From Pelodera strongyloides (taxonomy: Eukaryota; Nematoda; Chromadorea; Rhabditida; Rhabditidae): DNA of 64,000 nt. A model generated the notes under the pieces. The model worked only from the letters and a program-made list of their open reading frames with translations. It made no database searches and had not been told where the DNA came from. Below are positions 3,201 to 50,600 of the stretch, piece after piece. The translations under genes were made by a program, and so were the position numbers. The stretch is taken from assembly GCA_036852015.1 (NCBI GenBank), contig JAANDG010000601.1, positions 1 to 64,000 of the forward strand. The letters run 5' to 3'. Numbering within the stretch: position 1 is the stretch's first letter; each line of letters starts with the position of its first letter.

Positions 3201-5450
3201 AGTAAAAATCTGAAATCAACATACCATATCATCATCACTAACATGCACCACATTTGCATATCTCCTTGGTGCTACCGGTTGCTCATCTCGCACAACTCCA
3301 TTCCGGTGAGTGAGAGCGGCACGGGGAACGTGTGCCACACGATGCCGACCACTACGAGATGAGGACGGTTCCGTTGGGAAGTTTTCTGAAGAAAAAAGAA
3401 ACCGGTTATAAAAAAGGCTAGGACATTGCAAGTACGCCTGGATATGGTACACGAAATTTTGTCGGGCTGAGGCTTCTACTATATTTGTGCTATCTACGGA
3501 CCACCAGACCACTACCCTTGTAAGGCTCTTAAGGGCCTTGCAGTGAAGTTCCTTAGGCCTTAAGGGCCTTACACTCGATTGGCAAGTTTTCGAACAAAAG
3601 TAGGTAATGTGGCGCTTGCACGAATTAAGGGGCTGCAAATACAGAGCAGACAGACGCCCACGCCCAAGCAGGAAAACAAATACTAAGGATTCGGCAAGTG
3701 ATAAGCATTAAACAAAGACGCTACATTAGGATTCCTTACCAAAGGTGAATAAAAAGGAAAATTCGAAAATGCATCACAACTAAACGTACCAAAGTTGGCT
3801 CCACCACAGTGCGCAGGCTTGCTCGGTGCAGGGACCCTAAAATAGAGAATGTTACACCTGTAATAATTCACTATATACGAAAAACGGCCAGAACAAAGGT
3901 GTTCACACTTAACACTTCAAAAAGCCAACGTATTGGTCGATTTAAAGGGATAGGTTCACCTCGAATTGCACCCTTTTTTATTATTTCTATTGATAGTATG
4001 ACCTATGACGGTCAAAATGCGAAAATTGCAATAAATTTCCTTTGGTCCTCGAGCCAAGATCAAGCTCAAAAGCTAAACTACCTCGAATTTATAAAACAAC
4101 TGGCGTACCACAGACGAGGTCGGACGGTAGGCGAAATGTGTTACAAGTGCGAAATAGCGTGACAAGCTAGTGGTGCAGAGATTGTTGGGATAGGCAGAGG
4201 GTGAATATAAGACAGAGGGTGAGGGTTTTATGGTCGAGGTCGCTTAGCTTTTGAGTTTGCTCCTGGTTCGAGGAGCAAAGGAAATTTACTGAAATTTTCG
4301 CATTTTGACCGTCATAGGTCATACTATCAATAGAAATTATAAAAAAGGGTGCAATTCGAGGTGAACCTATCCCTTTAACACTAAACTCAATGACAATACT
4401 TACATTTATACTGAAACGGATCTACGTGCGGCGGTAAGCTCGTCTGCTGGCCTAAGTTATGTGAGGGTCAGCATACGGCTGGGCTAAGTTTCAAAGTCAA
4501 TACCATTATCTTCAAAACATACTCTTCCATTTCCTCCTCCCGTTCCGGTTCCGGTGTGCTTCTTCTCAATGTGCCCGCCGGCCTTGTTGACTCATAAGTG
4601 ATTTCCGGTTCCGCGTCATGAACTGGTTCCGCTTGTCCGGCAAAGTGTACTTCCATAGCCCGTCCCACATCCCAATCCATCGAAGCCAAAATTGCTATCG
4701 CTATATCGTTCTCAGTAACATTGGTAATCTCCTGAAAGCAGGGGTAATTGAACAACAAAGGAAAGCAAAGAAGAAGGTTGCCTCTATTGACTCTATTCTC
4801 ATTCTCAACGGAAACTAGCATGGCGATTGTGAGCAAGAAGCTGTCTTCTTTAACAACTTCTTACTTTTAAGAGTTGCGAAGGGAAGCAACTCTACTGATC
4901 TAGTATAAGAAACCAAATTAGGTTCAGTACCAGGTGCCTAATACAACTTCCCGCCGAACCGGCCGAACGTTACACGTAAGTAAGCGCGAAAGCAGACCAA
5001 AGAGTAGTATGAAGCTTCAGCATATCGTGACTTTTCTTTTCTTTATTTATTTTCACTTCAATGGAACGGGAAAGCGTCACGCTTACTTTTTGACTGAGCT
5101 TACTAGCTTACGCTTACCAAGCTCGCACCTAGCGCTATCAGGAGCCTTAGCTTCGAACCTCCACGTGATGTCTAACTGGGCGTTAAAGGGAAATACCGGC
5201 CGGTTTTTTTGAAACACAAAACACATCGAGTTCATATGCAGCTTATGCAAATGAACATAAACTGGTATAAAAAATCGAGCTCAATTCGAGCAAATTAGCA
5301 TAAATACGCAAGAATTCAGGTGTCCACGATGCGTTTCGAAAACCGGCCGGCATTTCTCTTTAACAAACTAAACTTCCAATCAAACAACAAACCCACCTGA
5401 AATTGTGTGAGTGCCGCCCGTTGGTCTTCCGTTAAGTTTTCTACATCCAT
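252..5450 (-). CDS. ubxn-3: FAF1/UBXN-3-like UBA-UAS protein, 5' part (continues past window start)
   Basis: Ten exons, read from high to low coordinates: 5450-5397, 4731-4504, 4446-4412, 3836-3790, 3385-3225, 2673-2564, 2243-2174, 1686-1588, 890-801, 393-252; 345 residues, all phases consistent. Residues 1-50 form a UBA-like domain (start MDVENLTEDQRAALTQFQ, later ASMDWDVGRAMEVHF). Residues about 60-165 are a charged, Arg/Ser/Pro-rich linker. From about residue 180 the thioredoxin-like UAS domain is clear: SFFVGGLHDALKE, KPLAIYLHHDRS, FIMWPWDVTQ, LNEWLTMCNLEHVSQIL, AYPVLLLLIKEKG, each aligning with human FAF1. The family recruits ubiquitylated clients to the p97/CDC-48 unfoldase through a C-terminal UBX domain, which would lie beyond the window. 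A TTTTTTCAG acceptor ends at 5462, 12 nt upstream of the ATG, and fits spliced-leader addition. The exon 2/3 junction (donor GTATTG) and exon 3 donor (GTATAA) are the weakest. No FAF1-type UBL domains are visible between UBA and UAS. Confidence 0.88.
591..713. mobile_element. Palindromic element with GGCCGTATTCACC ends, copy 1
   Basis: The left end GGCCGTATTCACCAGCAC is mirrored by GTTGGTGAATACGACC at the right. It lies in the intron between exons 9 and 10 of the FAF1-like gene. The interior holds CCTCCCTGG and AGAGTGCG segments that recur in inverted order in copy 2 at 986. Confidence 0.7.
986..1125. mobile_element. Palindromic element with GGCCGTATTCACC ends, copy 2
   Basis: Same terminal arms as the 591 element (GGCCGTATTCACCAACAC and the complement ending GGTGAATACGGCC). 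The interior AGGGAGCC and CGCACTCTCTACGC segments are those of copy 1 in the opposite orientation, so the two copies are inverted relative to each other, 270 bp apart. Confidence 0.7.
3942..4378. mobile_element. Palindromic TTAA-flanked element, TTAAAGGGATAGG family (copy 1)
   Basis: Inverted repeat in intron 3 of the FAF1-like gene. The left arm starts TTAAAGGGATAGGTTCACC and the right arm ends with its complement. The arms hold a matching stretch around CTATTGATAGTATGACCTATGACGG and its reverse complement. No transposase ORF is present, so it is non-autonomous. Its ends match the second palindrome of the 35 kb cluster (35013-35499). Confidence 0.8.
5183..5363. mobile_element. TTAA-flanked palindromic MITE, family A copy 1
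   Basis: TTAA-AGGGAAATACCGGCCGG at the left and its complement (CCGGCCGGCATTTCTCT-TTAA) at the right. The interior carries the AT-rich TTATGCAAATGAACATAAA stretch typical of the family. It is in intron 1 of the FAF1-like gene, just 3' of the first exon. Confidence 0.85.
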
Positions 5451-8432: not shown

Positions 8433-11400
8433 TCATTTGTTCTTGCGCTTCACGGAATCATTTGCCGGCGCCCGGCAATTCGGACAGTACCAAACACCAG
8501 CGGGAGATTCGGTCAGACCTATGCAGGCAAAGTGGAACCACTGGATGTGACACTGAAATAAGAATTATTAATTATGTATTATTAATAATTAATAGGATAC
8601 TAATAGGATAGCCAACCTTTAACCCGCTATACCGAATAAATTATATGCGTATATGCGAAAAAAAGAGGCAGTCGGAAATATGCATTTGAACTGATGAAAA
8701 GCTGGTTCGGATTCGGTTAATCTTAAAATCTTCTAAGAGTTAAGATAATCCAGAAATTTCTTCATTCACGAACCCGTCCTGAAACAAGTGTCATGCGGTA
8801 CACGGTACTACTATTTTATAGAAAAGTGTAAATATAATAAAAAGAAAAAAACATACACTTTCATTGTCGCAACAGATCATATCACCAGAGGACGGCTGAA
8901 AAAACAAGTCTTTTTATACAATTACTGAAAAACAAGTCTTATTTTACACAATTATAAAAAGGAAGCTCTATACACACGTTATCTTATTAAAGCGAAATAC
9001 CGGCCGGTTTTTGCAACACATCGTAGACAGCTGAATTCTTACGTATTTACGCAAAGCTGCTCGAATTTAGCTCGATGTTTTATTCTAATTTATGTTCATT
9101 TGCATAAGCTGCATAAGAATGCTAGTGTACTCGGTGTTTCAAAATCCGGCCGGTTTTTCGCTTTAAAAGAAATACCAATACCGTGAGTAAAGATACAATA
9201 AACCACAACCACACAAGTAAATCCCGGTTATAGACTCACTTCGAAATGCAACACGCCAGACTATGCCTATAGAAAACAATATAAGTTGTCAGCATATTTC
9301 AACAAGGTAAAACGAATAACCAATGATTCAACAAGCGTACCTTCTGGCAGAGACACCACGCATGGTCATCACTCTCTTCAGAATTTTCCAGGTCTTCATC
9401 AGCGGCGGCAACAACAGGCTGAAAAGTGAAAATAGTGCATGAAACAACAACAAAAAGAATCAATGCCGACGCCAATCTCGATTCCGGAGGTGGTTAGTCG
9501 GGTCGGTGATATCACCCCGCTCATAAATCAGTGCGTAATGCGTAAAGTCTCGCACCAACCATAGTCGGTATTTTAACTGAACTTTTCCATCTCGGAATAG
9601 TTGTACAGTAAAGAAATAGCACGCAAAGGCGGAGACCGAGACAATTCCGAGGTGGGATTCCGAGATGGAAAAGTTCAGTTAAAATACCGACTCAGACTGG
9701 CGTTCGCGTTGACCATCTACGGCGGCTATTTTATGTATTTGCGTGTGTGAAACGTATCACGATATCACCTATAACAGAAGACAAAAGCTAGAATAAACAG
9801 ATAATATCCGCGTGGAAATGGGATGTAAACAAAATTATAATAACTACCACGTCCTCGTCCTTCTTCTTCCTCTCCTTTTCCTTTCGCTCGCTCATGTGGA
9901 TCATCTCCTCCATTCTGTTGGTTAGCCTGAAGAAAAGGGAATTATGATTACGGAAATGGAATATGGAAGCAATTATTGGGCCAACTATTGAACTCGTATA
10001 TTACATTCGCATGTCTGGTTTTCATAAATCTCCAAGTAGATGAGCATGGAATGTGCAAAAGTTTGTTGCGCATACTCGTACACCCGCGTGCTTGTTTTTT
10101 CAAAACTCGGAATTCACGTATAACCGTACAAGTGAGTCTCAAAGTAAATGTGCGAGAAGAAATAAATAAAGCCCCACTTTCTCGGTCGTCCGTGCATACT
10201 CAAAGCCTCTGCAGTGTGCGTAAACGTCGGACCACCGTGCTGTTTCTTTTTTCTCTCCGATCTCTCGTGCGAACTAGAGGTGACCGACGAAACAGAAGCC
10301 TCTCTGAAAACAAGCCATAACATTACTTACTACACATGGCTCCGAGAAGCATACGGAGAACGGTGAACACAAGCGTAGAGTACCAACTGCTTAGAGAACA
10401 AAGTTCCATCATTGCTGCAAGGCTTAAGAGGGCACAGAAATTTCTTAAATTTTAAAACTGTTTTCTAAACAACGATTTTTATCGAGACGAGAGGGAGAGA
10501 GAGGCAGAGAGGGTATTAATTATTAATTCACCTAAGCTACACAATATATGCAAGCGAGTAGCGTTACAATAGGCTTGTCCTAGAACTTCCAACCAACCCA
10601 ACCGCCCAAAATTGTAGAAATTAGAATTCAAATCAGACTTCAATTCAGAAACCATAACCAAAGACTTGCCTCATCTGCCTGCTCAAAGACGACGATGTTG
10701 CATGCGGCGGGAAATGTAGGTCATTTCCAGCACTGCAACGACCGGGCGAATCCCGTGCATCTGGAGCAGAGGAGGGGCCAAAATCATTCAGATTTCCGAG
10801 TAACTCGTCCGTTGACAAGAAACCTAAGGATTCGTCCTGAAAACTTGAAAATTAAATTCCAACCCTCAAATATTTGCCTTCGAGAAAGAAGATTCGAAGA
10901 TTGGATATTGCGCAAGGGAAAAATGAATCATCATTTTGAACGCCCTCACTATCTGGCCACTAAAAATTTACAGAGTAACAAACATGCACAGCTTGTAATT
11001 TTTCTATTAGAACATAGAACTAGACTAACCACCACGAAAAAAATAAGCCACCTTCATTAGTGCATCTAAGTCCTCTTGAGGTACTGGGAATATCTTGGTA
11101 ATGTCCAAATTGTTCAAGTCCTCTTCGCTATCCAAAGGATCGACATCTGAAAATTGACAATTTTCAATAACGTTTTAAAAAACAGACGCAGTCAGCTGTC
11201 TGTAGGGCAAGAAGAAACGTATATAGAGCATTAAGTAATACAGTACTTGTGTGTAAAAAGGTACGACGGACATATAATCCCGACAATGATATGTGATGCT
11301 AATTTTTTGATGTATAGTAGTAATTTTTTTAGATGCATAGTACTAAAAAGAATAAATACCCTTGAAGCCCCTAGTATAAAGTAACAAGTAACAGCATCGA

Positions 11401-16084: not shown

Positions 16085-16266
16085 TTAAAGCGAAATACCG
16101 GCCGGTTTTTGAAACGCATCGAGTACACCAGCATTCTTATGCAACTTATGCAAATGAACATAAATTAGAATAAAAAATCGAGCTAAATTCGAGTACATTA
16201 GCATAAATACGCAATAATTCAGTTGTCCACGGTGCGTTTCAAAAACCGGCCAATATTTCGCTTTAA
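16085..16266. mobile_element. TTAA-flanked palindromic MITE, family A copy 3
   Basis: TTAA-AGCGAAATACCGGCCGG at the left; right arm AAAACCGGCCAATATTTCGCT-TTAA. Core TTATGCAACTTATGCAAATG and AATCGAGCTAAATTCGAG are as in the other copies. Confidence 0.9.
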
Positions 16267-17465: not shown

Positions 17466-17641
17466 TTAAAGCGAAATACCGGCCGGTTTTTGAAAAGCAT
17501 CTCAAGTACTTGCATTCCTACGCATGTATGCAACGTGGGGTCTAATCGGGGTCTAGTTTTTATTCTATTTTTTTGCTCATGCTGCATAAGAAAGCAGGCG
17601 TACGAAATGCGTTTCAAAAACCTGCCGGTATTACGCTTTAA
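17466..17641. mobile_element. TTAA-flanked palindromic MITE, family A copy 4 (variant core)
   Basis: Canonical ends AGCGAAATACCGGCCGG and complement, TTAA on both sides. The core differs (CATCTCAAGTACTTGCATTCC ... GGGGTCTAG) and matches copy 11 at 48703, so they form a subfamily. Confidence 0.88.
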
Positions 17642-18003: not shown

Positions 18004-18185
18004 TTAAAGCGAAATACCGGCCGGTTTTTGAAACACATCTAATAGACCAGCATTCTTATGCAGCGTATGCAAATGAACATAAATTAGAACAAAACATCGA
18101 GCTAATTTCGAGATAATTAGCATAAATACGTGAGAATTCAGTTGTCCACGATGCGTTTCAAAAACCGGCCGGTATTTCGCTTTAA
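18004..18185. mobile_element. TTAA-flanked palindromic MITE, family A copy 5
   Basis: Nearly canonical copy: TTAA-AGCGAAATACCGGCCGG ... CCGGCCGGTATTTCGCT-TTAA, with both arms intact. Confidence 0.92.
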
Positions 18186-31460: not shown

Positions 31461-34400
31461 ATGGGAGACGGTCGTCCGACGGATTCCTTTAAAGCGTTAA
31501 AGGGTCAGATGAAGCTGGACCTGAATGCACCTCCAGCACAGCCGAAGGTTGGTCAACCTCTCTCTCTCTATCCCTCTCTCTCTCTCTCCCTCTCCCTATC
31601 TCTCTCTCTCTCTCTCTTTTTCTTTTCCTTTTTCATTTTTTTCATATTGATTAACTTTTTTTTTACAGTATTTTGTCAGTTTTTTTTTGTGTCATACTGG
31701 TTTACGACCCATCTTTTATAATTAGGATAGATGAATGTGTTACGAAAAAAAATAGTATAAATAGATATAAAAAAAGTTATACTTCTTATTTGCAGAAGAG
31801 GACCTTGAGCCACTCATATTACTGTGCAAATACAAAAAAAAACATTGTAACTCTCATATTAGTTTCATAATCACTGGTAAATATTTTTGTTTATCACATA
31901 CACACTGAGTGAGTCCTGCTGCGTTGATAAGTCAGCCAACATGTACAGTTAGTAAGAGATAATGACAAAAAATAATAATAATAGTAAATAAATACTCTGA
32001 TGAAAGAATTACTTTTAACGGTTGGGGGATTTGTTTCATAAATGTCGTGTGTGACTTTATGTTGGATTAAATAAAATAAAATAAAAATCATTACATAACG
32101 ACATTTTCCATGGGACTGATCAGTTAGGCCTGATCGACTACGCCTAAGCCTAAGCCTTTTCCAACCAAAACAACTCAATAGTGTTATTTTTTGCGCCTGT
32201 GCCTAACAAGCCTAACCCAAGATCAAGAACACGGACAAAACCTTTTGCCTATGGTTTTATGTATTTGCTTTTTTAAACATTATTGTTATATTCTGGAATT
32301 TATTCCCACGGTTGATTTTGACGCGCCGAGGCCGAAAATACACAGTAACGGCGAAAACGCGAAAACGGGAACAATTTGAATATAGCATTTGAATATCGAC
32401 ATTCTCAGAAATAATAATTTTTAAAAGTTAAAAGTTTTATTAGACTCGTTATAAATTTATAATAACACATAATTTTGCAATGTAAGAATTCGTAGTATAA
32501 ACTGACTATGGCAGTTCTGATGCTAGGCATCGGCGGACAATTTTTAAACAAAATTGAACAAGGCAATTTGTTAGATCAAGTTTCATGTCTATCTAATTAT
32601 GCTCTTTTGCGCTTCAAGTCAATGCTCCTTTGCTAATTTAGTATAGTGTGGGGGCTTCACAGAGGTTTTCAGTAGACGGACGAGTTTCAGTTAACGTTAA
32701 CCTCAGGTCCTCAGGCATCATAGTTTATGGGAATTTTTATTATTTGTAATCTTCAAGAACTCCCATTCTCCTGTACTCAAATCTCAGTGGCCTGCAAAAT
32801 AATATTGTTTCTGAATAATTTGTTTACTGTTTGCTTGAAAAAAAAAGAGATTTAAAAATGGCTTGTCGATCGCGAGTCAAAATAGATCAGTTATTTCCCA
32901 CGGTGTCTTTCTATCCCTTTGACATGGAAATAATGATATCCTGATCCAAAATAAGTGCAAGAAGCGGTGTTATCTTTAATAGCATTTTACTTGCGTATTT
33001 TCTCACGCCTCCTCTTGCTTAAAATCAGAAATCACATTTATACCTCAAGTAAATTTGAGTTTTCATTTCAAATTTCTGTGTCTGTAGCCGCGCTTTGTAG
33101 GGAACATTTTTTTTAAATATAACTCTACCAATTGAACAGAATTTCTGATTTCTCAGAGTTAGGCAAGTAGAATAAGTTGGCATCACCTTTAATTTTCAAT
33201 AGTCATTGATGTTGACCGATTTTCAATAAGATCTATGAATTATGAACATCTCCTTATCTTTTCCTCTCTGCATGTATCTTGTTCTCTCTCTCTCTCTCTC
33301 TCTTTCTTTCTCCCCTCTCTTTTCTAATATGTATGTATGTATGCCACATACATATATATTTATTTGTATGCGTTGGCATTTTTATGAATTCAAATAGTGA
33401 GTAATGCACTTGGTCGGCTCTCCGATATACATAAACGTTTGGTGACAAAACATGTTCAACAAACAACGTTATCGATTGATAATTTGAATTTTTGAAAAAG
33501 TTCCAGTGTACGGTAGATTAACGACGTCTTCCTAAGCCTAAGCCTAAGCCAAAGCCAAAGCCTAAGCCTAAGCCAAAGCCAAAGCCTAAACCTAAGCCGA
33601 AGCCTAATGAGCCTAGTCTAGGGTCTTGCGACTCGCAAGTACGCGTAGACAGTGTCTAACCAATCGAAGTCCGAATCCTTACATTAATCCAAGAAAAACT
33701 ATTCCAAAAATACATAACTCCAAAATAAACGTACTTTTTACAAAATGTATAAACAAAAAGTATTTATTTAGAAAATTTTATAAACTATCTACGTAGGGAA
33801 GAAGAATTTGAAAATCTAAACAAGGAATTGCTGTGCTATTTTGGGCTTTTTTCAAATATAAACGAATAAATAAATGACATGAGAGATAAACTGTTTCACT
33901 GGTGTATGAGGGGGTCGTTATTTTATGTTATACTGTATTATTTTGGTGCGTAACCTACATCATCGAAACATAAAAACATACATACAAACAAACAAACAAA
34001 CAAAACAGTAAACAAACAAACGTACAAACAATTAAACAAACAAACTATATATTTTCAGGTCGACAAAATGCTGAGTCAAATACTAAAGAGTCCGCAATTC
34101 GAGATGATCAGCAGGGAGCTAGCACAATGTGAGTCTTTATTCGTTTTTGTATCTTTTTTATTATTTATCTTTGTATTGTACTGAATAATGGAGTATATTT
34201 TATACATATATTTATGGGATTTCCAAGTATGGCGAAAATTTACAGTATTTTGGAACTACACGAGAATATATATATTTTTTAATTTTTCATAATATATATG
34301 CAAGTTTCGTGCAGAAATACGGTAGTATTTACAGAATGACACCGAATTTTTGGATACTTGGAAAACCCATTACTAGCAGTATGTATTAATTTGAGCTTTC

Positions 34401-37400
34401 TGCTTTTCTTGTATTTTTACTCTTTCGACCTGTGCTTGCTCATCTCACGTATTATAGCTGGTCAGAGAAGTACGTTTCATCAAGGAAACAAATACATGTT
34501 AGAAAGTTGTTTACTTTAGTACTTACGGGAATTGTGAACATTTAGATAACAGTGATATTCTGGTGATATGCTATATTTTCGAACTTCTCATAAATACTCT
34601 TAAAGGGTCAGGCCCATTTCAAATGACCCCTATTTTTGATGATTCCATCTGATTCTTCTGTCATATATAGTAGGATACGATATTTTTCTAATCTTCAAGC
34701 TCAAAATTCACGCAGTATTCGGCAATTTACCATTGCCAGTCATACCCAACTATTTATCGCAGTTGTCACGCCCCCTCGCGCTAATTGGGCAATATGCTCT
34801 ATTGGGCGTGGCAATTGCTATATTGGCCAATCAGCGCGAAGGGGCGTACAAACTGCGATAAGTAGTTGGGTATGACTGCCCACGGTACATTGTCGAATAG
34901 TGTGTGAATTTTGAGCTTGAAAATTAGAAAAATATTGCATCCTACAACATATGACATGAAGAATCAGATGGAATCATCAAAAATAGGGGTCATTTGAAAT
35001 GGGCCTGACCCTTTAAAGGGATAGGTTCATCTCAAATCACCTCTCTTTTTATTGTTTTTATTGATAATAGCGCAAATATCATGCACAATGAAAATTAAAT
35101 CAATCACCGAACAATACGCCTCCCAGAAGAAGCTTCCTTTATTGGAAGCTAGTTGATCGGAAGCCAAAATCTAAACTCAAAAACTAATACCGTACACAGA
35201 TCGCGCGGGCTAATGGCAATTAGCCAAGAGCCAATTAAATGATTCACCGTGGAAAATAATGACCTGCCGAGTGTAGTTTGTAACTTGGCTAATTGCCATT
35301 AGCCCGCGCGATCTGTGCACGGTATTAGTTTTTGAGTTTAGATTTTGGCTTCCGATCGACTAGCTTCCAATAAAGGAAGCTTCTTCTGCGAGCTGTATTG
35401 TTCTGTGATTGATTTAATTTTCATTGTGAATGATATTTGTGCTATTATCAATAAAAACAATAAAAAGAGGGGTGATTTGAGATGAAACTATCCCTTTAAA
35501 GGATCGCAGTCACTCCAAAATCATCATTTTGCTTCGAGTTTACTTGAATTTAGTAAAGAATAAAGAAAAATACTTTACCAAAACCGAATAATTTGAATTC
35601 CAACTCAGGGGGTGAACAAGTAGAAAAGTAGTTCTACTTAACTACCGCGGGATTATGAAACGTGTAGTGGATATGCCTGCAGACCCTTGCAGTATATGTA
35701 AAGATATAATATTCAGATATTTGCCAAAATAATTTGCATACTCTCGATCGGGAAGCAGCTGTATGAACACGTTTCGTGATCCTGCGGTAGCTAAGTTGAA
35801 CTACTTTTCTACTTGTTCACTCCCTGAGTTGGAATTCAAATTATTCGGTTTTGCTGAAGTATTTGTCTCTATTCTTTACTACATACAAGTAAACTCGAAG
35901 AAAAACGACGATTTTGTAGTGACTGCGGACTAATATCGCAGTAACGAGCCAAGCATTGCCATACAAGGGGAGCATACTTTGGCCAATCTTGGATCTTTTA
36001 GTATATTCCTAGAATTTAGGATTCTATCCCATCAGAATTTCGGTAAACCCTATTCAATATAAAATATCGCAAACCGTACATAAATTTTTCCACTGAATAA
36101 CGTAACACATCTATTGTAAAATCATTTTTTTTGCAATGTAATCTAATCCAGAGAACCATGTTAAAAACTCCATACGACATGTTTTATTCATTTAATATAT
36201 GTGTGTATGTGCATGGGCAGAAAACAGAAAAAATACCCTCGATATTGGAAATACTCTCATCTCTGTCGTCTCTCTCTCTCTCTCTCTCCCTCTCTCTCTC
36301 CAACAGTCTCTCCCTCATTTTATTATTATTATTGTTTGATATGTATATGATGCAAGTGAGCTATACATATCTGCTAACAAATTTAAGAATGGATCTAAAC
36401 GTAAAAAATATGATCGTACACCAAAGCCTAAGCCTCATCATGGTGTGATTCTTATATATTCTTGCGTACTAGTGACTTGCAAATTTTATGCGAAGTAGTA
36501 TGGGAATTTATGTCATTGTTTATCTCAAAAAAACTGTTTCCTTAAATATAAATTTAAAAGATAAAGATGACAATGACCCACGTAAGTCATCCTATATCAG
36601 CCGCTGAAGGGGATTGAACCCGTGTCAGCAATCATCAAAGTCAAGGCACTTTACCAATACACTACATGATAGTTGCCGGAAGCTTGCTTATCCGAGTGAA
36701 ATTTAGTTTACATTTACATAATTGTGGTTGTTGCGCACGTAGTTTTATCATCGCACTTATAGATGCTAGTAGAGTGTGTGTGCAACTGGAAAATCAGAAA
36801 AAATGTATAAAAACCAAATCATCATGTGTTTTCATCCATACCTATCTATAGCAGCTCTTTGCTGTGCTGTTTGCGCCTCAATGACTTGTACTTCAATAGC
36901 AAATCACTTATACGGTATAATTTTTCATTTATCATTAAAGCAAAACGCCGGCAGGTTTTTGAAACACATCGAAGGGACCAGCATCCTTATGCAGCTTATG
37001 CAAATGATCATAAATTAGAATAAAAAATCGAGCTAAATCCGAGCAAATTAGCATAAATACGTAAGAATTCAGTTTAAACCGGCTGGCATCTCGCTTTGAA
37101 TGAACAGCATCCAGACATAGAACGTGTGCCTCTTTCCTAGGGTATTTCAATACAATGTTCGGAGCTTTTGACTTGTTCCTCAGAGGAGAGTAGACAGCAA
37201 AGTTTCAGAAATAGTCAAGCTCATACATACACTGAGCAGCCGAGCTCATGCTCTGGTGGAAAAGCCAGTTGGAGACCAGGTTCAGCTCATGCTCAATTTT
37301 GGTCTTTCTTCTGGTCTTTCCACGGAAAGACCGGGTCTGCCACGCACACGTCACAGAAACCTAGCTTGAGTCTCAGTTCTGATCAGCCTAGCGCGCCTAG

Positions 37401-41611: not shown

Positions 41612-44600
41612 TACCCACTTAATCTTAAATTACAAATAAGTGTTCGAAAATGAGTCTTCCTAGATGTTTCCACTTTTTCCCAACTGTTTTTTCAAGTTTC
41701 CTCCTGTCGTGTGCTTGACAAATTGTGTAATCTCGTGTGTGTTGTAATGGTCAATTTCTTTGCGACAGTTGCCTGTTTTTGTTGAGTTTTGAGGAAACAG
41801 TTCGCGGTTGCTTGCGATGTATGAACTGTGTGTGAATGTAAGGAAAACCTTTCGTTTTAGCTAAAACACAGGTACAGGTTGAATACCGTTGGGTATAAAA
41901 TATCATAGGTGAACTGACAAAAATCGTTGCAAGCGAGCGCTGTGGATTTGTTTATTAGTTTATTGTTGGGTTCATGGTATGATGTATGATCTACTTCTCA
42001 ATTTTCTTGTGCTGAAAGAGGAGGGGGTTTCCGAAAAATACCGGATTGAGCAATACCGTAAACTTTGGTGTTATCTCGCGCAATACCGTAAACTTTGGAG
42101 TTATCTCGCGCAATACCGTAAACTTTGGAGTTATCTCGTGCAATACCGTAAATTTTGGAGTTCTTTGGAGTTATCTCGTGCAATACCGTAAACTTTGGAG
42201 TTATCTCGTGCAATACCGTAAATTTTGGAGTTCGTGCTATACCGTAAACTTTGGAGTTATCTCGTGCAATACCGTAAACTTTGGAGTTATCTCGTGCAAT
42301 ACCGTAAACTTTGGAGTTCGTGCAATACCGTAAACTTTGTAGTTCGTGCAATACCGTAAACTTTGTAGTTCGTGCAATACCGTAAACTTTGGAGTTATCT
42401 CGTGCAATACCGTAAACTTTGGAGTTCGTGCAATACCGTAAACTTTGGAGTTCGTGCAATACCGTAAACTTTGTAGTTCGTGCAATACCGTAAACTTTGG
42501 AGTTATCTCGTAAGCAAGGGCGTAAGTTACGGGGCATATCATTGAAGCTCTATTGACCTTCCTTCAGTTCTAAACTTATTCTCTATTTCTAGATGCCCTT
42601 CGACATGTGCAACAGATGGAAAACTTCAGATACGACAACAATATCCTGTCTCCTTCGGTTATCAATCTTGTTACACCGATCCTCGAGACAGAAATGATGA
42701 AGAGCCTTAGCAGTCCTCTAGTCTCACCACTGAACCCAAAGTGAGTGACCAAGTTCGGCTTTGTTGGGTCTTTGTGGGTCTTTGTCCAACTCTCGTGAGC
42801 CATTCTCACTAGAAAAGTTGTATGCAAATTGTACACAAGTGTTTCTGTATCTCAACTTGACATATGTCATGCTAGCTAACCCATGATTATGTTTATGAGG
42901 AGTGCTATTTCATGTTGGGTTCTATAGAAAATTGAATTTGGATAAGAAATTATGGGTAACCCTTAGCCTTCCTACATACCCTTAACCTTCCTACAGTTCT
43001 CTTGTCTCACCACTAAACCCAAAGTACGTAACCCTAAGCCTAAGCCTAAGCCTAAGCCTAAATCAAGTTCCGTCAAGAAAAACTACCACGTATACAATTA
43101 TTCTATTTGTTCCAGAGACGTCGTCACCGTTCTCCAGGCGATCCAGGCTCAAACCCCTATCTCGGCACCACAGAAACTGTTGCCTGAGGTGAGCAATGGT
43201 TGTTCACTCTATGCGTTTGTAAGTTCAATTTCAAAGTTTTGGCTTCCTTCATTTGTTGGTAGGTGTCACTTGAAAGGGATAATCTCGAAAACCAGGTACC
43301 ATACTTTTTCTTTTAAAGCGAAGTACTGGCCGGTTTTTGAAACGCATCGAGTACATCATCATGCTTATGCAAATTAACACAAATTGGAGTAAAAAATCGA
43401 GCTAAGTTCGAAGAGCTTAGCATAAATATGTTAAAATTCAGTTGTCCTCGATGCGTTTCAAAAACCGGCCGGTATTTCGCTTTAACGTTCAATAAAGAGT
43501 TACCTACAACTAATGGTAATTCAGCGGCACTCTTTCAGGATACCTCATCGGCCACAGTGAGCAGCTCATCCTCTTTAACACGTCCGACCCTCGCATCATT
43601 GGCTCAGCAGCTCCAATTCGAGTCGTCGTTCAAGCAACTGATCAACACTTCCACCGTAAGTCAACTTTCTTTTAAAGCGGTATTCACGTGGTTTATGAAA
43701 GGTATCTTATTATATAAAGGAGAAGAGTTTACTTGGTCTTTTGTTTGTATGCACGCAACGAAATCCTTGCATAAAGAAAATTTTCTATTCGCAATCGAAT
43801 GAGAACATACAAAATCTTTGCCGCTTGCGGTATTCGAACCCACAGCAGCACCCAATCACTCGCTTCACAGTCCAATGCTCTACCTGCTGAGCTATGCTAG
43901 CTTATGACGAGGATAATCCTCTGCCCTACATACAGCACCTTCAATAGCAAATTTGCATGGTGGCATTAGTCGAGTGGTGATCCAAACTGATTATTATACG
44001 TTTCCACAATCAGAGACGTGTGATTGTGTGGGAGGAGAAAGAGACGAGAGTTAACTTTTTAAATCGTAGAATCCTTTTTTTAAATACGGAAACAATCGGC
44101 CGAAGGCCGATTCCTCCAGTCGGAGAAGAGCCCGTAGGGCTCTTCGAACGGTTGGTACTCGATAATTGCATTCCCATGTATTATCTTCCGGACCAGGCGG
44201 GCACAGAAAATTAGCATATACACTGCAACACAGTTGTTTAGAATACGGTTGCAGTGTTTTACATGCTATTCCGAGAGTATACTCATGGAATGCATACAAT
44301 TGGACACGTTGCCACACGCACGCACGCATGCACACAAACAGTATTTAATCTAAAATACTGTATTTTCAGCCTAGTACATCCACCGGAGCCGGCGCGTCTG
44401 GTTCGTCATCAACCTACTCACAACCACCTCCACCGCCAGTTCATTTGAATATTCCAAAGCCGGATGAGAAATCGATATCTTCAATATCCCCGCAGTCGTC
44501 TACAATTTCGACGAACAACATTCAACACCAACCAACAAATACTGCCACCATGGATAGCATGGGAGAAACTGATGTGAGTATTTCTTGGGAATAAGCTGGG

Positions 44601-47600: not shown

Positions 47601-50600
47601 TGCCTGTTGAGCCATGCGGGCTTATGAGCCCGTAGGCCTCTTTGAACGGCTGGTACTTAATGTTCCAAAATATCTATATTATACCTTAACTTTACATCGA
47701 TCCCTTCGAAATATTATGTTACTTTCTGGTTTACTTCAAGTTCCTATCTGCGTATAGTCCGGAATATCGAACTCTAACAAAGCGGTAAAGAGCCTATAAT
47801 CCTCATTAATCACAAATCATAAGGTATTCAGTGCACATATGACCCTCCACAACATAATTCAATAGAATATAATAGAACTTAACCGACTCATAACCTTATT
47901 CACCCCTTGGTTAAGTGCTCGAACAATTGAACCTTTTGTAAATTCGGATTTGTGGCTTATTAATCATAAGCCTACTTACGTCGGTAGACTCCCAGTGCTA
48001 TTTATGTGGTAGGCAAGCAGTAGGAATGTAAAGTGAGAAAACAAGGATTGTTCTTATTTAAAGTTTAAAGGATGTTACTTTGGACAAAAGGAAAATACCG
48101 TACACATATGTGTGGCGTGATGGAGGAATAGTTGAATCGAGGACTTTGAAAACCCAGAAAAAACGTTATTCTGAAATTGTGTGTGTAAAACAGTAACATA
48201 CTTTCCACGAGGCTTGTGATAATATAGTGCTGCCCTTATTCGACAGGAGTTGCGAGATTTATTTTCAAGAAAATGCACGCTGGAAAACAACAGTGTTACC
48301 ACGTGAAGACGTTAGTCAGAAGTTAGCTGCAATCATAGTTTGTTCATAACGCAGTATATATTTATTTTTAGTCTGAAGTACCCAAGCCATACGTAAAAAC
48401 TAGGAAACCAGACAAAATATTATGTTTACAGACATTCCGATTTCTGCAAAATTTGGGGCGCTCATTGAAAAACAAATCTGCTATTTTCGTCTGCGAAACA
48501 TGAAACAATCATAACATAGTTTGCAGGTTTCGTATGTATGTTTTAGATGCTTTGATTACCGTACTCAATAATACCAATTACATCGTAACTGCTTATTAGC
48601 CGAACTTTTTTTATTCCAAAAAGGAAATTGGGAAAATCATAGACGTGAAAGGAGAGTGGGACAAATATACGCAGATGCTAATACTTTAATACACGCAACA
48701 AATTAAAGCGAAATAACGGCCGGGTTTTGAAGCACATCTCAAGTATTTGCATTCCTATGCATTTATGCAAAGTGGGGTTTATTTGGGGCCTAGTTTTTAT
48801 TCAGATTTTTTTTGCTCATTTTCATAAGCTCCATAAGAAAGCAGGTGTGCGCAATGCGTTTCAAAAACCGGCCGTTATTTCGCTTTAAAACTTCGGAAAC
48901 TGGGTGAATCACATAACACATAGATCTCAAGACCCAATGGGCCCACTTCTCGAACTATCCCTAGGTCCCGAAGCCGTTTTTGCTTGCGCACTTTGTGTTT
49001 TGCTTGCGCAATTTTTGTACAGCCAATGCTTGAGGGTTTCTTGTTTGCAGACCTAATAGAAAAATGATGTCACAGAATTGAAACTGTGCTATCATAGAAA
49101 CAGATAGGTAGAGGCAGAATTTTGCCAGAGTTGTTTGTGTAAACTTTACGTTACAAGTCCTATAAATAATAAGTTGACGTGTTGAAGTAAGCAAACTTTT
49201 CGTATTATTAGTGGTACGCAAATAAAATCGAAATTTCCTGCAAAATTAAAACAAATAGACGGTCTGGTTTCTAATTTACAGCAACTATAGTTTCTTAAAA
49301 AAACAATATCGAAATTTTGCAAATTTACAAAAGTCGGTCCATAACCGAGATCCAACCTCCTCTGGTAATATAATATTCATAGTAGTAACCAAATGAGACA
49401 GGTTCAAAATTTTGTCGGCACTAAAAAAACCGCAGAACATCAAAGTTTACTTTTCCGAACGGCAAATGACTTACACGATCTACGTTTGTTGAAAAGACGA
49501 AGAAAAAAAGAGAGAGAGAGAAATAAAGGGACACAGAAAGAGAGAGAGAGAGAGAGAAAAGAGAGAGGGAGAGAGAGACAGAAAGTGAGAAGGAGAGAGA
49601 CACAGAGAGAGATAATAGACAAAGAGGTAAAGTGACATTTTTTCCAAAAAGGGAAATTTTTCACGTAAGGTTCTGTCGCGCTTTTGATTTTGTGCCCCTC
49701 GAGATACGAACGAGCCTAAACAGGTTATGAATCGTGACGCGCTACAAATACTAGCCATTTCATTTGTACTTTAAACTTTGTATTTTGGATCCTACTTTGT
49801 AGTTTGTATTTTGGAAAATAATGCTTCTGGTTTGCACTTATTTCCCACCTAATTGTTTACTCGTGTTCTGCTAATTAAATCAACTTATTAAATCAAGAAT
49901 TTCAATGTAGGTATCCGTTTATGGCAGGAGCCTTTCTTGCTTTCTCCTATGTGTAAATGTGACAGTTCCGCGATGGTCTACGTCATCATATTGCTAGCGA
50001 TGACGTAATATTGCACAATTGCCTGTATTGTAGATGGTCTTGGGCTACGGTAATTGTATGTCCCCTACGCTACTGTAGGAATCAGTTTTGCTCAAAGCTA
50101 ACATTTCGATCCAACTGTTTATTCCTATTCCGTAATGATAACAATCTACTATACGCTTTACAACCCGGATATACCTTTCTGCCATTACTCATCAAAACTT
50201 AAACACTCGTCCTGTGATGTTTGTATGTACCTATACAATTCATGACTCAGCCACACCCTCATGTGAACTATGAACTACACAACTGTCCAGTTTACGAAGT
50301 TCTGTCGCGGCACCCCGTCCGACTGTATCATGTATTTGCATATTCGAAATGTTCCGTATTGCTTTTCCCTTTTCATCTGCGTCTCTTGATAGCGCACACT
50401 CTCTAATCACTGATTTCGTAACCAAAAGCGGTGTGCGTGCGTGCTGCGCAGTGGTTGCGGAGGCATCGCGGCAGCGGCGTCTGACTCACCGGTGGGCGGG
50501 GCCAGCGCTCGAGCACAGGCTTTCTGTTCTGTATATTTCCTCCCTTTTTACTCTGCACCTATACAGCCCTCCTCGGTCTCAGACACCTTGCCGACATCCT

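Follow-up and report, generated by a model that had tools for sequence, protein, structure and literature searches.

Kolobok transposons duplicate a TTAA target and have AG...CT ends (PMC9587614 and PMC6004289, cited here and below in their available portions). Their 5'-RR...YY-3' termini are unlike those of piggyBac (PMC9587614), and full-length Kolobok copies in Xenopus (XKol) carry AG beside the TTAA (PMC6004289). T2-MITEs of Xenopus, defined by TTAA plus a terminal AGGRR, target TTAA, reach high copy number and lack a transposase gene of their own (PMC6004289). TTAA is also duplicated by piggyBac elements, whose ends read CC[C/T]T; coral CMITEs, which have such ends, are TTAA MITEs joined head to tail in arrays of like units and ascribed to slippage (PMC2872659, likewise in its available portion). 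KolobokP multimers are Kolobok-type elements linked in chains; their members have long direct repeats in common at the termini, and their formation has been attributed to unequal crossover driven by an endonuclease (PMC9587614).

Here we describe three palindromic elements, E1, E2 and E3, that lie end to end at 34600-35935 of a 64-kb stretch of DNA (hereafter the window) and were recognised from the sequence and an inverted-repeat search. Like T2-MITEs they target TTAA, carry AGG at their termini, reach high copy number and contain no transposase gene; they differ from them in that the strict AGGRR occurs in E2 alone and in being near-complete palindromes. With Kolobok transposons they share the TTAA duplication and AG...CT ends, but no transposase turned up for E1-E3 in searches whose controls were likewise unrecovered; with coral CMITEs they share the joining of TTAA MITEs, but neither the CC[C/T]T ends nor the likeness of units; and with KolobokP multimers they share the linking of apparently Kolobok-type elements into chains, but not the long terminal direct repeats. 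Plant nested MITE multimers likewise consist of MITEs inserted into one another, but belong to other superfamilies and use other targets. For chains that mix T2/Kolobok families, we found no description in the work surveyed on TTAA MITEs arrayed in tandem or nested, which included the available portions of PMC6004289, PMC2872659 and PMC9587614 and lay mostly outside subscription papers. We conclude that, very probably, E1-E3 represent three gene-less, multi-copy TTAA MITE families and their chain was built by serial insertion into edge TTAA.

Three palindromic elements and their copies

E1 (34600-35016; 417 bp; TTAAAGGGTCAGG...CCTGACCCTTTAA) and E2 (35013-35499; 487 bp; TTAAAGGGATAGG...CTATCCCTTTAA) are palindromic, non-autonomous elements delimited by their inverted repeats and by genome copies, and the same evidence delimits E3 (35496 to about 35927; TTAAAGGATCGCAG...CTGCG), which has lost its right terminus. 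The TTAA at 35013-35016 is common to E1 and E2, a type of join that occurs elsewhere in the genome, and the TTAA at 35496-35499 is common to E2 and E3, whose end types also recur as joins; the exact abutment reported at these two sites in the initial annotation is thus seen directly in the sequence. In all three elements the arms reach almost to the centre. The outermost 59 bp of E1 are perfectly complementary between its first and last ends, the arms of E2 are 95% complementary over 222 bp (a span that runs a few bases past the element on each side), and those of E3 are 90% complementary over 161 bp.

All three elements start with TTAAAGG. Over the first 45 bases E1 and E2 are identical at 34 positions (BLAST E about 4e-5), and the initial description of the three as unrelated overstates their differences; E3 agrees with E1 at 23 and with E2 at 20 of the 45 positions. 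In E3 copies elsewhere, CTGCG is followed by ATCCTTTAA in 23 of 29 cases and by variants differing at one or two bases in the other six. At 35928-35936 the window E3 reads GACTAATAT instead, and there is no right TTAA. The end originally given for the third element, 35932, falls within this damaged terminus, and the account of three long palindromes bordered by TTAA accordingly holds in full for E1 and E2 and on the left side for E3. Whether E3 is followed on its right by a fourth element resembling it was considered and rejected, since the best local alignments score 35 and 28, no higher than the mean for shuffled sequence (about 35).

The same assembly (159,866,919 bases in 1171 contigs) yielded 1647 first-look candidates for E1, 491 for E2 and 705 for E3, and 40 per element were scored, window copy included. 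All 40 scored candidates for E1 match over the whole element, or almost the whole, with 94-100% identity, and the same is true of E2; the 39 other scored copies of E3 match positions 1-432 of the query, or nearly, at 97%. We examined 70 loci, comprising the three window copies and 67 others (9 E1, 29 E2 and 29 E3; L002-L010, L012-L040 and L042-L070), and TTAA is intact at both ends in 60 of the 67 (E1 8/9, E2 27/29, E3 25/29). Because full-length genome matches carry TTAA borders, the palindromes in the window are not a product of chance. Outer flanks vary from copy to copy, save where the flank is the edge of another element. E1, E2 and E3 are therefore multi-copy elements, and TTAA-bordered solo copies exist for each of them; the initial annotation had named solo copies, together with empty sites, as support for serial targeted insertion.

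Probable insertion into edge TTAA

The proposed origin calls for ordinary steps. A MITE that inserts into TTAA and duplicates its target would leave TTAA at both of its edges; a later MITE entering one of these would produce two elements parted by one common TTAA, and a second such event would extend the pair to a chain of three. The movement would be cut-and-paste by a Kolobok-type transposase, and the window chain itself would have grown stepwise in this manner. As one common TTAA is the outcome of a single insertion at an existing edge TTAA, no special mechanism is needed. Support comes from the TTAA boundaries, the solo copies of all three elements, one empty site for E2, the range of partners in the joins, and further three-element chains. 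The suggestion that edge TTAA had been used repeatedly as a target is supported by the solo copies, the empty site and the varied partners.

The empty site concerns the E2 copy at L034. When its flanks are joined over one TTAA, they run ungapped through the joint in alignments with E2-less copies of a palindromic repeat, TTAAAGGGAGAGGCCC.... Such alignments are shown in L070, in L035 and within L034 itself, and L070 also gives a second, weaker match that is gapped near the joint. E2 in L034 is thus inserted inside this repeat, a different palindromic TTAA family, adding the element and a 4-bp duplication. The insertion point reads TTAA in L034 and TGAA in the E2-less paralogs shown; a point change before the insertion apparently created the target TTAA. 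The 400 bp left of the window triple drew 2149 first-look candidates, and the 40 scored among them offer no empty site for it. Within these scored candidates the 400-bp flank matches elsewhere only over its first ~190 bp, to about 34390; the sequence adjoining E1 on the left has no paralog there, and this leaves the triple without an empty site. The matching part coincides with a high-copy interspersed repeat at about 34200-34390, ~160 bp long and mostly at 87-92% identity.

Joins of this kind are widespread. The palindrome formed when two AGGG-type elements abut, CCCTTTAAAGGG, occurs 497 times in the genome, compared with 20 for a control with reversed letters, and the more specific pattern CTRWCCCTTTAAAGGRWYRSR returned 104 + 105 matches against none in the control. 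Many of these joins are entered on both strands, and by our own count the 100 of 209 matches listed represent at least 77 distinct joins. Twenty join loci were fetched (L071-L090), and in 12 of them a single TTAA has clear inverted ends (at least 19 of 24 bases) to its left and right. The other eight (L072, L075, L079, L083, L084, L085, L087 and L089) have no clear far end on one side, or on both in L085, which indicates an element that is truncated or diverged or extends past the stretch.

Partners and their order vary among the joins; besides E1, E2 and E3, the partners include further families whose ends are built alike. Several loci feature E2-type ends around a non-E2 interior, showing that such ends are not confined to a single family. 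An extra CTTTAAAG[CG] motif at the outer edge of three of the 20 joins (L076, L082 and L090) suggests a possible third element at each. L035, one of the 67 copies, is a chain of three (F10|E2|GCG), and at L097 two adjacent E1 copies are accompanied by a GCG edge. At L080, an E2-type|E1 pair has the identical 8 bp GCCTAAGC outside the TTAA on both flanks.

Overall, TTAA-edge joins are common and largely ordinary here, apart from a twofold edge excess. Such chains follow largely from dense MITEs and a re-created target, aided by about twofold over-use of edges. Abutting elements with one common TTAA thus need no composite-transposon story, as target duplication and high density are nearly enough; the twofold edge excess is the sole part that asks for more. 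Repeat annotators could misread such chains as single complex elements.

Frequency of neighbours at element edges

To express the excess we took as null that every TTAA side is equally likely to bear an element edge, with a background drawn from the flanks of the 67 copies (about 1.5 kb on each side) rather than from the whole genome. In this background an edge with a known terminus (any of ten) is present at 113 of 2095 TTAA sides (5.4%). Intact focal ends have a neighbour on the outer side in 14 of 127 cases (11.0%), a ratio of 2.0 (Fisher p 0.016); by family, the abutting ends number 0/17 for E1, 8/56 for E2 and 6/54 for E3. The control motifs AATT, TATA and ATAT show an edge frequency of 0.1-0.3%. 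The most frequent neighbour at E2 and E3 abutting ends (10/14) is TTAAAGCGAAATACCGGCCGG..., a short palindromic TTAA family that is very common and also present in the window at 5183-5363, 8987-9166, 16085-16266, 17466-17641, 18004-18185, 43313-43485 and 48703-48888.

Genome-wide counts cover the ends of E1 and E2 and rely on AG[CG], a looser criterion than a match to a listed edge. By this measure 227 of 1358 exact E2 ends (16.7%) are followed by AG[CG], as are 386 of 2497 exact E1 ends (15.5%), though none of the 17 sampled E1 ends abuts a listed edge. The corresponding background is 150 of 2095 sides (7.2%), for ratios of 2.3 (E2) and 2.2 (E1); a background restricted to the window (60/691) lowers these to 1.9 and 1.8. 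E2 copies with AG[CG] past both intact ends number at least 8, counted by eye among the matches listed, and about 7 would be expected if the ends were independent. The closeness of these two values, taken with the roughly twofold excess, indicates that the chains are mostly a product of MITE density with a modest real excess, and the excess itself indicates that purely random choice of TTAA is not the whole story.

Target context was tabulated over 12 positions flanking TTAA, and a wider target motif was rejected, since only the base before TTAA stands out. At non-abutting ends this base is C in 32 of 113 cases (28%), whereas its share among the 1982 background sides is 13.7% (p 8e-5). A is somewhat underrepresented (p 0.035), and T, at 39 of 113 compared with 39% in the same background, is not preferred. 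C before TTAA is therefore a mild target preference beyond TTAA itself. Element edges always present T before TTAA, and because the preferred base is C, the immediate context does not explain the abutment excess.

This mismatch, together with the genome-wide, roughly twofold surplus of neighbours beside intact ends of E1 and E2, leaves some room for a reading that would add to serial insertion rather than replace it, namely that a transposase bound to an element end prefers the adjacent TTAA and chains are actively built. We regard this as tentative and rather doubtful: the excess is no more than about twofold, its background comes from the ~1.5-kb flanks of the 67 copies, and uneven insertion tolerance, in which occupied sites are safe and accessible, would give an excess of the same sign. 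Put more generally, and just as speculatively, Kolobok-type transposition might be biased about twofold to the TTAA sites that flank resident elements, such that MITEs self-assemble into mixed-family chains. If true, self-targeting could seed new composite elements.

Superfamily and alternative origins

The termini bear on which superfamily is involved. E1 and E2 carry AG...CT (AGG...CCT) just inside the TTAA on either side, as does E3 on its left and, in its other copies, on its right. The 5'-RR and YY-3' termini of Kolobok are thus found in E1, E2 and E3 (the right end of E3 being read from other copies), as is its 4-bp TTAA target-site duplication (60/67 copies; one E2 empty site). Measured against the TTAA and AGGRR of T2-MITEs, E2 conforms (AGGGA), and E1 (AGGGT) and E3 (AGGAT) depart at the last letter. 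In terminal sequence the three elements fit the Kolobok superfamily, close to the Xenopus T2-MITEs.

The link to piggyBac raised in the initial annotation is disfavoured by the same termini. That the elements are piggyBac MITEs has in its favour that piggyBac, too, duplicates TTAA, and that coral piggyBac-type MITEs make tandem arrays (PMC2872659, available portion). However, all three elements begin with AGG inside the TTAA and end AGG...CCT, as opposed to the CC[C/T]T of piggyBac, and we consider this assignment improbable.

Pfam family searches for DDE_Tnp_1_7 (PF13843), with a piggyBac transposase in view, and for THAP, with a Kolobok transposase in view, each returned 0 candidates, with controls likewise unrecovered. 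Candidates for an autonomous partner were sought where E1 or E2 ends face inward across more than ~0.8 kb, and seven such pairs were chosen by eye among the matches listed. The 2.68-kb element at L091 (31-2711) has E1-like inverted ends of 188 bp (94%) around an unrelated interior, and its right side abuts another TTAAAGG element edge; on its sequence it is possibly a decayed longer relative. L093 contains a 400-bp palindrome in its interior. No Pfam match above cut-off was found in 10 ORFs scanned from L091 and L093, and the eight from L091 gave no recognisable protein, a difference from Kolobok transposons. Inserts interrupt the E1 copies at L092, L094 and L095, and at L096 a poly-C/poly-G interior is enclosed by E2-like ends. 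The 4.4-kb insert in the E1 copy at L092 (87-4478) holds a 129-bp minisatellite of about 21 copies.

The initial annotation also allowed for one composite unit, in which E1-E2-E3 would move together via its outer ends. Any chain with working outer ends could in principle move whole, and an E1|E3 pair recurs at L088, L089 and L090 with its members oriented alike relative to each other. L088 and L089, however, are separated by ~5 kb on a single contig, have a common right flank and look like a local duplication; outer flanks mostly differ, and L086 has E1 and E3 reversed in order, in keeping with the variable partners and orders of the joins as a whole. No second E1|E2|E3 chain was found in the 20 fetched joins, including the 12 with E1/E2-type or E2/E3-type ends (L071-L082), nor were two joins ~480 bp apart found among the matches listed (100 of 209). 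The window E3, moreover, is without a right end. A composite unit is unsupported by these data, and we judge it very improbable.

The origin put forward for coral CMITEs, a tandem array arising through slippage during replication or through unequal exchange, can draw on joins that pair like end types (E1-type|E1-type, at C40:178979 and C180:211937), but it is rejected as barely credible because slippage cannot join the three different families that abut in the window, where the boundaries sit exactly at TTAA.

Serial insertion into edge TTAA remains our preferred account of the triple. Elsewhere in the window, a further palindromic TTAA element at 3942-4378 has E2-like ends (57 bp, about 79-85% to E2), and a ~30-bp tandem repeat at 42050-42511, in 16 copies, gives rise to a long repetitive open frame.
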